A stretch of DNA of 48,099 nt from a virus: positions 1-48,099 of IMG/VR virus record IMGVR_UViG_3300034200_000904; one strand, written 5' to 3'. This document shows, one piece after another, positions 3,577 through 43,267 of the stretch. The notes under the pieces are model-generated. The model saw only the letters and a program-made list of their open reading frames with translations. It made no database searches and had not been told where the DNA came from. The stretch's first letter is position 1. Every line of letters starts with the position of its first letter. The position numbers and the translations under genes were made by a program.

Positions 3577-5213
3577 AAGTATATGTTGGGTACGATTCTA
3601 GAGAAGATATTGCCTATGAAATTTGTAAATATTCTATTCATAGAAGAAGTTCGGGTGTACAAGTCGAACCTTTAGATCAGCAAGAACTTAGAGAACAAAA
3701 AATCTATACAAGGGAAGTAGATCCATTAAGTTCAACGGAATTTACTTTTACAAGATTTTTAGTTCCTTATCTTTCCGAATATAAAGGATGGGCCATATTT
3801 TGTGATTGTGATTTTTTGTTTTTAGAAGATATAACTAAATTATTTGAAGTTGCTTGGAGAAAGGAAAATCAGCAATATGCTGTAATGTGTGTTCATCACG
3901 AATATAATCCAACAAATTCTACCAAGATGGATAATCAAACACAACATTTATATCCTAGAAAAAATTGGAGCTCGTTGATTTTGTTTAACTGTCAACATCC
4001 TTCGAATCAACTACTAACTCCAGAACTAGTTAACAGTCAAACTGGAGCATTCTTACATAGATTTCAATGGCTTAAAGATGAAGAGATAGGTACAATCAAC
4101 CATGAATGGAACTGGTTAGTAAATTGGTACCACGAACCTAAAGACGGTTCGCCTAAAGCTATTCATTATACTGAAGGCGGTCCTTGGTTTCCTAATTATC
4201 TTAATTGCGAATACGGTGCTACATGGCTTCAAGAAAAATATGAATATTTAAAACATACTGCACCAGCTCCTCTACTAAGCCCGTACGAATCTGTTCCAGA
4301 TGAAATTAAAAATATTTTTGACAGTATATTGAAATATAGGGTGGACCCATCCGGAAGTTATTATAATATTACTACAAAAAGCATAGTAGAACAAATTAAA
4401 AATTTAACAGTAGATTCTATAATTTCTGTTAATTCAGATAGTAACGAAGTAAAATATTTGGAGAAAGGACATATGTACGACCCTATTTTACAAAATTTTG
4501 TATTAGGAGCTGGAGGTCAAATTAGTACTTGGGACATCGCCGAGCCTAAATCTCAACCTGTACTTTTAAGAGGAATTACTAAACGTAAACAAATGAAAAG
4601 CTGTCAAGAAATTGGAAGAGATTTCTATTATATAGATACAGGATATTTTGGAAACGGTCGTAAAAAATTATATCATAGGGTTACAAAAAACTCCATGCAA
4701 AATATAGGACCTGTGTTAGATAGACCAGCAGACAGATTCGAAGCCACCGGAATGAGCTTAACAAAGTTTAGAAGAGGATCTAGTATTCTTCTTTGTCCGC
4801 CTAGTGCTAAGGCGATGGCATTTTATGAATTAGATTTAGACGAATGGTTGACTACTACTATTAACACTATAAAACAGTATACTGATAGGCCGATAATAAC
4901 AAGAATTAAAAAAGGTCGTGCAGAAAGAGTAACTACTGACACAATGGAAATGGCGTTATCTCGTGATGTGCATTGTTTAGTGACTTTTAACAGTATAGCT
5001 GCTACAGAAGCATTATTGTTAGGAAAACCTGCATTTACTTTAGGACCAAATGCTGCACAAAGCCTTTGCCTGTCAGATTTGTCAAAAATTGAAACACCTT
5101 ACATACCAACACTCGATGAAGTGCATCACTGGGCATGTCATTTAGCATACGCACAATTTACCGTAGACGAAATGCGATCAGGATTAGCTTGGAGAATTGT
5201 AAGTGAAACATGA
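3573..5213 (+). CDS. Two-domain glycosyltransferase (GT8-like N-terminus, KpsS-like C-terminus)
   Basis: A 546-residue protein. The start is taken at the ATG overlapping the previous stop (ATGA) rather than at an upstream ATG inside that gene. The N-terminal part MKVYVGYDSRED plus FCDCDFLF (DxD at residues 78-80) is typical of a GT-A nucleotide-sugar transferase. From about residue 290 a second domain resembles the next gene and the one at 7.6 kb (KQYTDRPII, then FNSIAATEALLLGKPAF). In this copy the RPHPG motif of its relatives is replaced by TRIKKG, so the second domain may be catalytically altered. Confidence 0.75.
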   Translation: MKVYVGYDSREDIAYEICKYSIHRRSSGVQVEPLDQQELREQKIYTREVDPLSSTEFTFTRFLVPYLSEYKGWAIFCDCDFLFLEDITKLFEVAWRKENQQYAVMCVHHEYNPTNSTKMDNQTQHLYPRKNWSSLILFNCQHPSNQLLTPELVNSQTGAFLHRFQWLKDEEIGTINHEWNWLVNWYHEPKDGSPKAIHYTEGGPWFPNYLNCEYGATWLQEKYEYLKHTAPAPLLSPYESVPDEIKNIFDSILKYRVDPSGSYYNITTKSIVEQIKNLTVDSIISVNSDSNEVKYLEKGHMYDPILQNFVLGAGGQISTWDIAEPKSQPVLLRGITKRKQMKSCQEIGRDFYYIDTGYFGNGRKKLYHRVTKNSMQNIGPVLDRPADRFEATGMSLTKFRRGSSILLCPPSAKAMAFYELDLDEWLTTTINTIKQYTDRPIITRIKKGRAERVTTDTMEMALSRDVHCLVTFNSIAATEALLLGKPAFTLGPNAAQSLCLSDLSKIETPYIPTLDEVHHWACHLAYAQFTVDEMRSGLAWRIVSET

Positions 5214-41223: not shown

Positions 41224-41542
41224 CGTCTTGTAGTACAATAGTTTCGGCACCGTCGTATTCGTCTATACGAAATAAGCTGCCTTCGGGAATCCAAGTAATC
41301 ACAAGATCATCTACACCGCCCCAATAAGCGGATTTGTGTTCGTTTTGATAGTGTTCTTCGCAGTAGGCTTCTACTTCTTCAGCCTCGGCTCCGCGTTCGA
41401 TCATGTCAACCAGTTGTGGATCAAACAGTAATTCTTCAATACGATGCCAGCTATACCAGCCAGCACCATGCTGAGGACTGTGGATCACAGCCACTCGACC
41501 AAAACGTACAACTTTTGCACAATCAGATATACTTATAGCCAA
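41201..41542 (-). CDS. Conserved phage protein (113 aa)
   Basis: A TTG start is chosen because GGAG lies 8 bases before it; no in-frame ATG exists near. RFGRVAVIHSPQHGAGWYSW and WGGVDDLVITWIPEGSLFRI are blocks I recall from a widespread unannotated phage protein. It overlaps neighbours on both sides. Confidence 0.62.
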   Translation of the reverse strand: MAISISDCAKVVRFGRVAVIHSPQHGAGWYSWHRIEELLFDPQLVDMIERGAEAEEVEAYCEEHYQNEHKSAYWGGVDDLVITWIPEGSLFRIDEYDGAETIVLQDDDLWIVA

Positions 41543-41711
41543 CCGCAATTCTCCATAAACTGGCTTTCATAGGGTTCATAAACTCTATGGATATTTCATT
41601 ATCTTCGTAATGAAACGTTAATTTATAATCTTTTTTTGGTGTGAGTCTTAACGCTTCTAAGTCTGCTTCCAATTGATTAAAATTAATATCTCTTTGTAAT
41701 TGTATTACCAT
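41523..41711 (-). CDS. 62-residue protein, probably leaderless mRNA
   Basis: The start is set at ATG followed by VIQLQRDINFNQLEA, which lies exactly where transcription should begin downstream of a TTGACT-17-TATACT promoter. Another ATG two codons earlier abuts the -10 box. It ends IAVGYKYI. The function is unknown. Confidence 0.55.
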   Translation of the reverse strand: MVIQLQRDINFNQLEADLEALRLTPKKDYKLTFHYEDNEISIEFMNPMKASLWRIAVGYKYI

Positions 41712-41717
41712 GTTCAT

Positions 41718-41746
41718 AGTATACTATCATTCCTCTTCGTAGTCAA
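41718..41746 (-). promoter_or_regulatory. Promoter TTGACT-17-TATACT giving a leaderless transcript
   Basis: The -35 box is inside the last codons of the amber-interrupted gene. Seven bases after the -10 box is the A of an ATG, so the mRNA would start with AUG. Confidence 0.68.
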
Positions 41747-42290
41747 GTTCATCTTCTTCAATCCATTTTTGATTTGGATCATCATAGGCTTTGTAATAAG
41801 CTTCGTTTGGTTTGAGCACTCTGAAATCGTTGCTATATTTTAAACTGGCCAAAGTGTACTCTGTCTTTTTGAGTAAATCACAAACTACCCAAGCAGTTCC
41901 GCATCCCCCACTAACGTTCTTAAATGGACTGTGTTTATACTCGTTAGCCATTAAGGCGTTATGCATTTTATTGCCATACGCAAAGATGATACGAGTAATG
42001 CCTAACCGTTGGTTACGCAGTCTTACTTTATCAATTAGTGTTAAATTAGTAATGTGGGCACAGTTGTTGTCGTCGATTGTAAGTAATACATTCTTGACCT
42101 TAATACTGCCCTTGGTATGACTGTTTGTTGGCGTTTCTTTTGTGCTCCACGGAACATCGCAGTCAACGTGTTCTACATAATAAGTTTCCCCATGAAATTT
42201 AACGACCCACATAGGAATAGTCGAGTCTTCCAAATGTTTCTTGTTAAAGTGGAAAACTATATCATCACATGCAAATTCAATCTATGCCAT
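41727..42290 (-). CDS. Conserved phage protein with in-frame amber at codon 3
   Basis: AAGGAG lies six bases before ATG GCA TAG ATT GAA, and the same frame then continues for about 185 codons. After the amber the product reads IEFACDDIVFHFNKKHLEDS, then TIPMWVVKFHGETYYVEHVD and PWSTKETPTNSHTKGSIKVK, conserved-looking blocks I associate with an unannotated phage protein. The N-terminal 19 codons after TAG look coding, and the only later in-frame starts (TTG 42233, ATG 42212) have no ribosome binding site. I infer translation requires reading UAG, for which a tRNA(CUA) lies 290 bases upstream in the same unit. Confidence 0.7.
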
Positions 42291-42320
42291 TTTAATCTCC
42301 TTAAAAAATTAGCAATGTAT

Positions 42321-42563
42321 TTATTGATCCCATTTAAACACCTTAAATGTTTTATCAATTATATGTTCTTTTTTACTAGGTGTAGTATCTGCTATTTCGC
42401 TGACAAAATGTATTTCAAAACCGTCGAACTTACCGTCGGTCATTTTGGTTAGTATTTTATCTACTTGTTTACCTGTACGTTCTTGTACAATGTTAGCAAC
42501 AATTTGTTCAACAGTTTGAGCATCGATGTTAGTGCTGACATCCAGTTCAAATTGATAAGTCAT
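42321..42563 (-). CDS. 80-residue protein downstream of amber tRNA
   Basis: Mixed alpha/beta: MTYQFELDVSTNIDAQTVEQ, KILTKMTDGKFDGFEIHFVS and a lysine-rich end (KEHIIDKTFKVFKWDQ). AAAGGAA precedes the ATG. It sits between the tRNA(CUA) and the amber-containing gene. Function unknown. Confidence 0.62.
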   Translation of the reverse strand: MTYQFELDVSTNIDAQTVEQIVANIVQERTGKQVDKILTKMTDGKFDGFEIHFVSEIADTTPSKKEHIIDKTFKVFKWDQ

Positions 42564-42578
42564 AATATTTCCTTTGTT

Positions 42579-42654
42579 TGGTGCACCGAATGGGATTCGA
42601 ACCCATAACCTTGAGCTTTAGAGACTCCGGCTCTAACCGTTGAGCTACCAGTGC
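42579..42654 (-). tRNA. tRNA with anticodon CUA (amber suppressor)
   Basis: A 76-base cloverleaf with acceptor GCACTGG/TCGGTGC, D arm GCTC/GAGC with 8-base loop, T arm ATGGG-TTCGAAT-CCCAT, discriminator A and encoded CCA. The anticodon loop is CTCTAAA with U33, so positions 34-36 are CUA, reading UAG. The anticodon stem is weak (three Watson-Crick pairs, one G-U, one G-A mismatch). The T-arm side and loop resemble tRNA-Trp (loop CTCCAAA), so it may derive from it by one change. The amino acid inserted is not determined. Confidence 0.8.
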
Positions 42655-42682
42655 TTTAATCTGTATGGGTCTTTCCCCACGG

Positions 42683-42892
42683 TCAATTCTTTAGCTGATT
42701 AATTTCTTCAACTAACGGTTGTATGTGATGAGTATACAATTGTTCCATCTGTTTGTAAAGACTCTGTCTTTCCGAATCTGACATGCCGGCAGTAATCGAA
42801 CTGATGACTGTGTCATCGGATTGTTTGTTCAAACCGTAGTCATGACGCCAAGTGTAGCACATACCAGTTATAATTTCTTCTTTAGTTTTCAA
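42683..42892 (-). CDS. 69-residue protein before amber tRNA
   Basis: Starts at TTG with AGGAAGG upstream, overlapping the preceding gene by 11 bases. Sequence KTKEEIITGMCYTWRHDYGL then SSITAGMSDSERQSLYKQ is helical. The spacing to the tRNA (28 bases) suggests cotranscription. Confidence 0.58.
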   Translation of the reverse strand: MKTKEEIITGMCYTWRHDYGLNKQSDDTVISSITAGMSDSERQSLYKQMEQLYTHHIQPLVEEINQLKN

Positions 42893-43112
42893 TTTGGCCT
42901 TCCTCTACTACACGACGTTCCCGATAGTGAACATTGATAAACTTTTTAGCACTTTCTAAGGTGCTAAACTTTCTAGTTATTCTGTAAGTATCTGAATCAT
43001 TATGTTTGATTGGACTCCAGAAAGCCCACCAAAGAAATTTCTGTTCAGTCCATATTTCGTAATGGACATCACCATTGCCGTCTTTTTCTTCTACAATTTT
43101 ATATTTGGTCAT
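42882..43112 (-). CDS. 76-residue basic protein
   Basis: MTKYKIVEEKDGNGDVHYEI, then FLWWAFWSPIKHNDSDTYRI and LESAKKFINVHYRERR, a pattern of two strands and a helix. Start overlaps the upstream TGA. Function unknown. Confidence 0.62.
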   Translation of the reverse strand: MTKYKIVEEKDGNGDVHYEIWTEQKFLWWAFWSPIKHNDSDTYRITRKFSTLESAKKFINVHYRERRVVEEGQIEN

Positions 43113-43267
43113 AGTCTACACTCTGCTATCATTTTAGATTTAACCTGTTGAAGTCTTTGATTCCACACGATTGCAGCTTGACGACATTCGTTTTCGGATT
43201 GATATCTGTTATGTTCAGCAAAGTTACTAGGCGTAGCTAACCAAAAAACTAAAATATAAGTTGTCAT
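43109..43267 (-). CDS. Small N-anchored two-cysteine protein
   Basis: A 52-residue protein. Hydrophobic start MTTYILVFWLATPSN, then RYQSENECRQAAIVWNQRLQ and IAECRL at the end: the same leader-Cys-helix-Cys layout as the genes at 24.3, 37.9 and 46.5 kb. ATGA overlaps at both ends. Confidence 0.58.
   Translation of the reverse strand: MTTYILVFWLATPSNFAEHNRYQSENECRQAAIVWNQRLQQVKSKMIAECRL

Follow-up and report, generated by a model that had tools for sequence, protein, structure and literature searches.

An early stop codon, probably read by a dedicated phage suppressor tRNA, as the likely gate on an operon linked to translation quality control

A group of phages is likely to hold one operon linked to translation quality control under the control of a dedicated suppressor tRNA, which would read a stop codon placed a few codons after the start of the gated gene. 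The window analysed here is a stretch of viral DNA of 48,099 nucleotides (IMG/VR record IMGVR_UViG_3300034200_000904), in which an amber codon (TAG) stands as codon 3 of a gene referred to as HFNK, a working name taken from invariant residues of its product. Comparison of related loci shows that the early stop is conserved, that coding sequence follows it directly, that the tRNA is linked to the gene, and that in one phage the stop codon and the anticodon are switched in a matching way. Readthrough, its efficiency, the residue inserted and a regulatory purpose are inferred, with no protein, reporter or ribosome data to draw upon.

In the window, the minus strand carries in order a CUA tRNA, a small ORF and the TAG-bearing gene. 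The suppressor tRNA (42579..42654, minus strand, CCA encoded, identical in sequence in L001-L004) matches the Rfam tRNA model (RF00005) with 60.8 bits over 42582-42654, and ARAGORN calls its anticodon as CTA with the label 'Pyl', a label that mirrors the anticodon alone. The ORF between the tRNA and the gated gene (42321..42563, minus strand, 80 codons, from the ORF list) has no PHROGs or Pfam match and its function is unassigned. The HFNK gene (41727..42290, minus strand) begins AAGGAG-(6 nt)-ATG GCA TAG ATT GAA, with its Shine-Dalgarno (SD) sequence at 42297..42302, the ATG at 42288..42290 and the TAG, the proposed gate, at 42282..42284, after which the frame stays open for 184 codons until a TGA at 41727-41729. 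A simple scan of 41400-43200 found terminator-like sites on the plus strand only, leaving the tRNA and the HFNK gene unseparated, and their co-transcription is inferred from sequence alone. Another ORF of the window shows an early TAG, after ATG 35138, but this was put down to chance, as the ORF has a normal start, ATG 35083, with an SD.

The initial annotation had described a complete CUA tRNA at this position, a gene start of AAGGAG followed by ATG GCA TAG ATT GAA with about 185 open codons, and the TAG gene as the second downstream of the tRNA; all of this held, the small ORF being the one gene between. Its further claim that the codons between the amber and a possible TTG start at 42233 look coding also held, given the invariant residues there and the third-position bias in relatives. 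That TTG is residue 17 of the post-TAG protein, and it is disfavoured as a start because the invariant residues H11, F12, N13 and K14 (57 aligned sequences) would be lost. Homologues beginning at ATG 42212, or a covariance model giving another anticodon, would have refuted the proposal; both were examined, and relatives do not start at that ATG and the anticodon is CUA.

The first search for relatives screened viral contigs for peptide patterns that were drawn from the HFNK body and did not include the TAG. Of 232 relatives the best 80 were kept, and the others were read only if brought in by a later search with a phage isolate (below). An in-frame TAG lies just ahead of the conserved I-E-[YF]-A-C start in 80/80 (with one extra codon in two), and in all 80 an in-frame ATG lies 1-9 codons 5' of the TAG with, by inspection, an SD-like sequence upstream. 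The terminal stops of these 80 genes are TAA in 45, TGA in 35 and TAG in none. When 48 distinct haplotypes are compared, the nine codons that lead up to the FHF motif, and that directly follow the TAG in 78/80 loci, show average differences of.09/.09/.39 at positions 1/2/3; the corresponding figure for the DNA lying 21-40 bases ahead of the ATG is.72. This third-position bias, set against the upstream divergence, indicates that the sequence after the TAG is translated. Silent sites have changed and the TAG has not, and the codons after it evolve as coding sequence.

A second search took as its query the unannotated HFNK homologue of an isolate, Rhizobium phage RHph_I1_18, which reads MSEFM-TAG-NESCREVIFHFN and has a CUA tRNA 11 bases after its stop codon. 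It returned 69 loci, 68 of them new. The resulting set of 151 HFNK loci consists of the 80, all but one of the 68, L154 and three phage records; in a few cases loci lie on a shared contig. Not counted in it are the window (L081), L151, whose gene runs off the contig, and Atu_ph07 in its IMG/VR copy (L153, L211). The early TAG is present in 129/151 loci and in 56/68 clusters at 85% identity, with an in-frame ATG in 129/129 by the definition used. An automatic count over 83 distinct haplotypes puts the TAG at codon 3 in 57 and at codons 4 to 13 in the others (two loci also permit counting it as codon 2), and a purine lies directly 3' of it in 83/83. Distinct early-stop N-termini following a strong SD and ATG number 60 for TAG, 3 for TGA and 2 for TAA in L001-L154 and the window, loci L001-L154 having been selected for encoding HFNK by peptide patterns lacking the TAG. 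The recurrence of the TAG in 80/80 of the best relatives and in 129/151 loci goes beyond chance. One pattern-based scan confirmed no HFNK relatives in bacterial chromosomes.

These counts bear on the simplest objection, that the TAG is a sequencing error or marks a pseudogene. A lone in-frame stop is the usual sign of decay, and this speaks for the objection. It is all but excluded, however, by the relatives: the same stop recurs in 80/80 of them from many contigs, the third-position bias after the stop is strong, and the stop is also found in the complete isolate genome of RHph_I1_18.

Other features of the HFNK region were seen in passing. At L116:3119, L117:3304, L111 and L136:3781 a second, HFNK-like SD-ATG-GCA-TAG-ATT-GAA start lies upstream of the HFNK gene and leads into a homing-endonuclease-like ORF, with a frameshift in 2/4 of these loci. 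In L116/L117 this was considered as a second gated gene (MA*IEYSSIID...; asterisk, stop) and rejected: by inspection its downstream part reads like a homing endonuclease, and it was treated as a remnant. Permuted-type tmRNA calls (ARAGORN tmRNA*, with tags such as ANDTRFALAA) lie near the HFNK gene in many loci (L013, L016, L020, L022-L027, L036-L042, L053, L060, L103, L115, L120, L140 and others), and a tmRNA might be another translation-rescue part of the region.

The stop codon is accompanied by a tRNA able to pair with it. ARAGORN placed a CUA tRNA within the locus in 42/56 amber HFNK clusters. A covariance model of CUA tRNAs was then run on 20 whole contigs that had shown no such tRNA close to the gene (19 amber contigs and L112) and gave a match with a CUA loop in 14/20; ARAGORN agrees in four, and for the other ten the anticodon was read from the match, those of L092 and L124 being lower-ranked matches. 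The amber clusters with a CUA tRNA rise in this way to 50/56. None was found in the other six, which are L043, L055 and L063 (short contigs), L105 (gene at the contig end), L108 (ambiguous) and L089 (not fully read). Among the CUA tRNAs that ARAGORN called in amber loci, 98/98 are on the strand of the gene and 96/98 are upstream of it, 52 of these by less than 1 kb.

The suppressor tRNAs also differ from their neighbours. The pair 31-39, beside the anticodon loop, is non-Watson-Crick in 70/87 distinct suppressor tRNAs, a few of which are UCA or UUA and the others CUA, and in 18/215 of the other tRNAs from these loci (Fisher p 5e-35, which is overstated because the tRNA sequences are related). 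In 49 aligned tRNAs G1-C72 and C2-G71 are common to all, position 73 is mostly A, and the D-loop G and T-loop TTC are invariant. An initiator tRNA reading UAG was ruled out by inspection, 1-72 being a G-C pair.

Where the HFNK gene lacks the amber codon, the gate is usually found on another gene ahead of it. Of the 22/151 loci without an amber HFNK, 21 have an early stop in a peptidyl-tRNA-hydrolase-like (PTH2-like) gene shortly upstream, beginning for example MT*INNQKLRVVTRRDL. In 20/22 the PTH2-like gene is intact and starts within about 1.3 kb upstream, the early in-frame stop being TAG in 19 and TGA in 1; in L152 the early-stop start heads a PTH2 that a frameshift has broken into two frames. 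L132 (1/22) has neither kind of early stop. In L112 the TAG is on PTH2, and HFNK starts plainly M-I-E. As to the family, 6/10 gated proteins tested exceed the 23-bit cut-off of Pfam PTH2 (PF01981), namely those of Phosso (60.6 bits), Atu_ph07 (59.2), L135 (37.9), L145 (34.1), Alice (31.7) and L159 (30.8), while 3/10 fall below it (L112 15.8, L217 20.4, L204 12.3) and L205 has no match. We take the gated upstream gene to be PTH2 on the strength of these matches, its hydrolase activity being inferred from the sequence. In the isolate Phosso, PTH2 is annotated from 3034, and the SD, ATG, TAG and open frame begin at 2872; the CUA tRNA of this phage sits at 446,731, some 200 kb or more away from the gate at about 176,490.

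Neither the gate nor the tRNA is universal among PTH2 loci. No CUA tRNA was found for the PTH2-gated L144; in L206-L210 PTH2 has no early stop in the stretch read, and a CUA tRNA is nonetheless present in 4/5 of these loci; L201-L202 have neither the stop nor the CUA tRNA. The contig of L132 (G022) carries a CUA tRNA alongside an HFNK gene without a gate; no target for the tRNA was found, and early stops turned up there in chance-like numbers under a relaxed scan (TAG 12, TGA 10, TAA 9). Phage XacN1 was tried as a further example and rejected: CUA tRNAs are present, but PTH2 is ungated and no convincing early-amber gene was seen, a scan of 320 of its 385 kb giving chance-like counts of TAG 5, TGA 4 and TAA 1. 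As separate observations, the ungated PTH2 of L203 is followed by a tRNA with a TTA (ochre) anticodon at 4676-4766, and the ORF at 3742 in L112, between PTH2 and HFNK, resembles by eye the N-terminal part that is fused to HFNK in Phosso and Atu_ph07.

The PTH2 gene of Agrobacterium phage Atu_ph07 has a different stop, reading MIGEHF-TGA-INYEE. Its genome paper reports a UCA suppressor tRNA, proposes several potential targets for it and gives gp256, which is the TGA-gated gene, as a peptidyl-tRNA hydrolase (PMC6102473). Run on the whole genome, ARAGORN found the UCA tRNA as the only suppressor tRNA, with no CUA or UUA tRNA. The match between stop and anticodon is shown by the sequence, and such a pairing is to be expected if the gate depends on the tRNA, though it is a single case. 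The strict genome-wide scan did not flag this TGA gate, the phage's own, because its SD is only AAAGG.

In Mycobacterium phages, 193 records of which were among the tblastn hits to PTH2, the arrangement is less decisive. In Alice, Cane17, Myrna, ScoobyDoobyDoo and Phabba (5/5) an ATG-TAG or GTG-TAG stands immediately before the annotated GTG start of PTH2, and all five also have a CUA tRNA downstream. A 75-base segment over the TAG site matches at >=90% in 190 records, the TAG itself having been read in five only. Since the codon after the TAG is GTG, a start at this codon cannot be excluded here.

This raises the possibility that ATG-x-TAG is a mini-ORF or leader, at which ribosomes terminate and restart at the next codon or nearby, without any suppression. 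The GTG of the five Mycobacterium phages speaks for it, as does TAG-ATT, the commonest context elsewhere (66/83 haplotypes); ATT can serve as a weak start codon. On the other side, the codon after the TAG is also ACT, AAA, AAC, GTT, GTA or ATC, protein-like conservation starts right behind the TAG, and a mini-ORF leaves the CUA tRNA and the TGA/UCA pair of Atu_ph07 unexplained. We consider it unlikely.

Less likely still is a suppressor tRNA that serves to insert one specific amino acid because the protein requires its side chain there. The TAG is kept in most relatives, and the 49 aligned tRNAs share G1-C72, C2-G71 and mostly A73, as such a need would allow. Against this, the number of residues before the TAG varies, the same gate occurs on a different protein (PTH2) and with TGA in one phage, and amber-free relatives begin directly at the next residue: the HFNK genes of L112 and L132 begin M-I-E where others read M-x-TAG-I-E, and the residue at the TAG therefore looks dispensable.

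Genome-wide reassignment of TAG, with the HFNK gene as one example, is likewise disfavoured and very unlikely. The stop-usage test covered only a 364,554-base contig whose HFNK is 99% identical to that of the window, Atu_ph07 and G022. TAG is rare as a stop in the first of these (11/327 ORFs >=100 aa), which could be read as support for reassignment. So could metagenomic sequences with an early TAG in PTH2: LR745206 and LR756504 (~635-kb phages that we take to be Lak-like and to use code 15), where the short stretch examined showed no tRNA, and LR756501 (L160, 735,411 bases), which may be more widely recoded given a second in-frame TAG 34 codons further into PTH2. LR756500 has both the early TAG in PTH2 and a CUA tRNA. 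However, TAG does still terminate those 11/327 ORFs of the 364,554-base contig, the closest large one, and the strict scan there for ORFs with SD, ATG and early stop gave TAG 2 and TAA 3, one of the TAG ORFs being HFNK; in Atu_ph07 TGA terminates 232/606 ORFs despite the UCA tRNA. In G022 TAG terminates 16/205 ORFs. The closest large contig is thus not recoded genome-wide, and the code looks otherwise standard where checked. The claim of the initial annotation that the phage tRNA gates translation locally, without genome-wide recoding, is supported by this comparison, readthrough remaining an inference without protein data.

The function of HFNK itself was not revealed by similarity. It has no PHROGs or Pfam match, and no match to PDB sequences better than E 0.32. 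The AlphaFold2 model (mean pLDDT 88.7, pTM 0.65), taken with the alignment, describes a beta-rich N-terminal domain, with the invariant HFNK and PMW residues, and a ferredoxin-like C-terminal domain. Foldseek found nothing in the PDB at E<=0.001, and in BFVD two matches at E<=0.001, one of them an uncharacterised phage protein with 50% identity. The C-terminal half (residues 93-169) has a common ferredoxin-like arrangement by VIA-align (best Z 5.7, rmsd 3.4, 75 residues; the N-terminal half was not searched alone), and the structure searches gave no function.

In the mechanism that we propose, the phage would make a suppressor tRNA, charged by a host synthetase, for a stop that lies somewhere from codon 2 to about codon 13 in a single gene or operon. 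Ribosomes would load at the normal start codon. Without the charged phage tRNA, release factor 1 would terminate translation after a few residues; with it, some ribosomes would insert an amino acid at the UAG and go on to make the full protein, which would be HFNK in the window and, in other phages, PTH2 upstream of an ungated HFNK. The arrangement would act as an AND gate requiring both the mRNA and the mature charged tRNA, working against release-factor activity, and it may limit or delay the output of HFNK, or of PTH2 and what follows it. Control is favoured over chemistry because the inserted residue seems not to matter, amber-free relatives starting M-I-E. The initial annotation had gone further in proposing that the product appears only after tRNA synthesis, and this timing rests on inference alone.

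A bolder reading, to be held as a possibility only, takes the early stop as a translation sensor in a feedback loop that also predates, and may have seeded, full TAG recoding. A contested codon near the start would cause ribosomes to drop short peptidyl-tRNAs, a state needing peptidyl-tRNA hydrolase; the gated operon would encode PTH2 and its partner HFNK, and the supply of suppressor tRNA together with the level of release factor 1 would set its output. PTH2 could conceivably act on the dropped peptidyl-tRNA, which is inferred and not shown; that the gated gene is a peptidyl-tRNA hydrolase suggests feedback without demonstrating it. As a conserved device in phages of several host groups, the gate would on this reading predate recoding and could have seeded it in phages that keep the same early TAG.

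If correct, the gate offers a testable form of tRNA-based gene control in phages able to grow on laboratory strains, and a possible route by which phages came to alter the genetic code. It also leads annotation to overlook or misplace genes: in RHph_I1_18 the gated gene is not annotated at all, in Phosso it is given a later start, and in Mycobacterium phages it is started at the post-TAG codon.

Among known systems, autoregulation of prfB likewise places a stop codon soon after the start, making expression depend on release-factor competition. The difference is that prfB relies on frameshifting at a UGA, while the present stop would be decoded in frame by a dedicated tRNA. Pyrrolysine and selenocysteine decoding use one dedicated tRNA for a stop codon in few genes. 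The present tRNAs share this dedication but have ordinary features, and the residue is apparently dispensable; tRNA-Pyl lacks such D-loop G and T-loop TTC features, and its architecture is not met here, given the Rfam tRNA match and the invariance of both features in the 49 aligned tRNAs. In minigenes, and in drop-off close to the start codon, ribosomes lose very short peptidyl-tRNAs, which peptidyl-tRNA hydrolase then recycles (PMC10192219). Here the early stop heads the peptidyl-tRNA hydrolase gene or its neighbour HFNK, a link that is merely suggested. In the open-access literature searched, which leaves out most subscription papers and all bioRxiv preprints, nothing was found that ties a suppressor tRNA of a phage to a stop codon early in the gene for a peptidyl-tRNA hydrolase or for HFNK.

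The closest comparisons are with other phages. In phage code 15 (TAG to Gln) a phage CUA tRNA also reads in-frame TAG in phage genes, and this recoding has been proposed to time gene expression (PMC10879173); Borges 2022 reportedly bears on stop-codon recoding in phages as well. There, TAG lies inside many genes, whereas here the stop falls no later than codon 13 and in a single gene or operon; the CUA suppressor tRNA is present, and TAG as sense across many genes was not seen in the closest large contig. XacN1, RsoM2USA, Summit and Atu_ph07 are alike in that each has a suppressor tRNA and is annotated under the normal code. The authors for XacN1 and Summit described it without an identified target, and those for RsoM2USA and Atu_ph07 only suggest several potential targets (for Atu_ph07, PMC6102473). 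The present work differs in that a target is now identified for the suppressor tRNAs of several phage lineages, Atu_ph07 included (the TGA-gated PTH2, gp256); some phages with a CUA tRNA, XacN1 among them, show no such target. The gate may explain why some phages with a normal code carry suppressor tRNAs.
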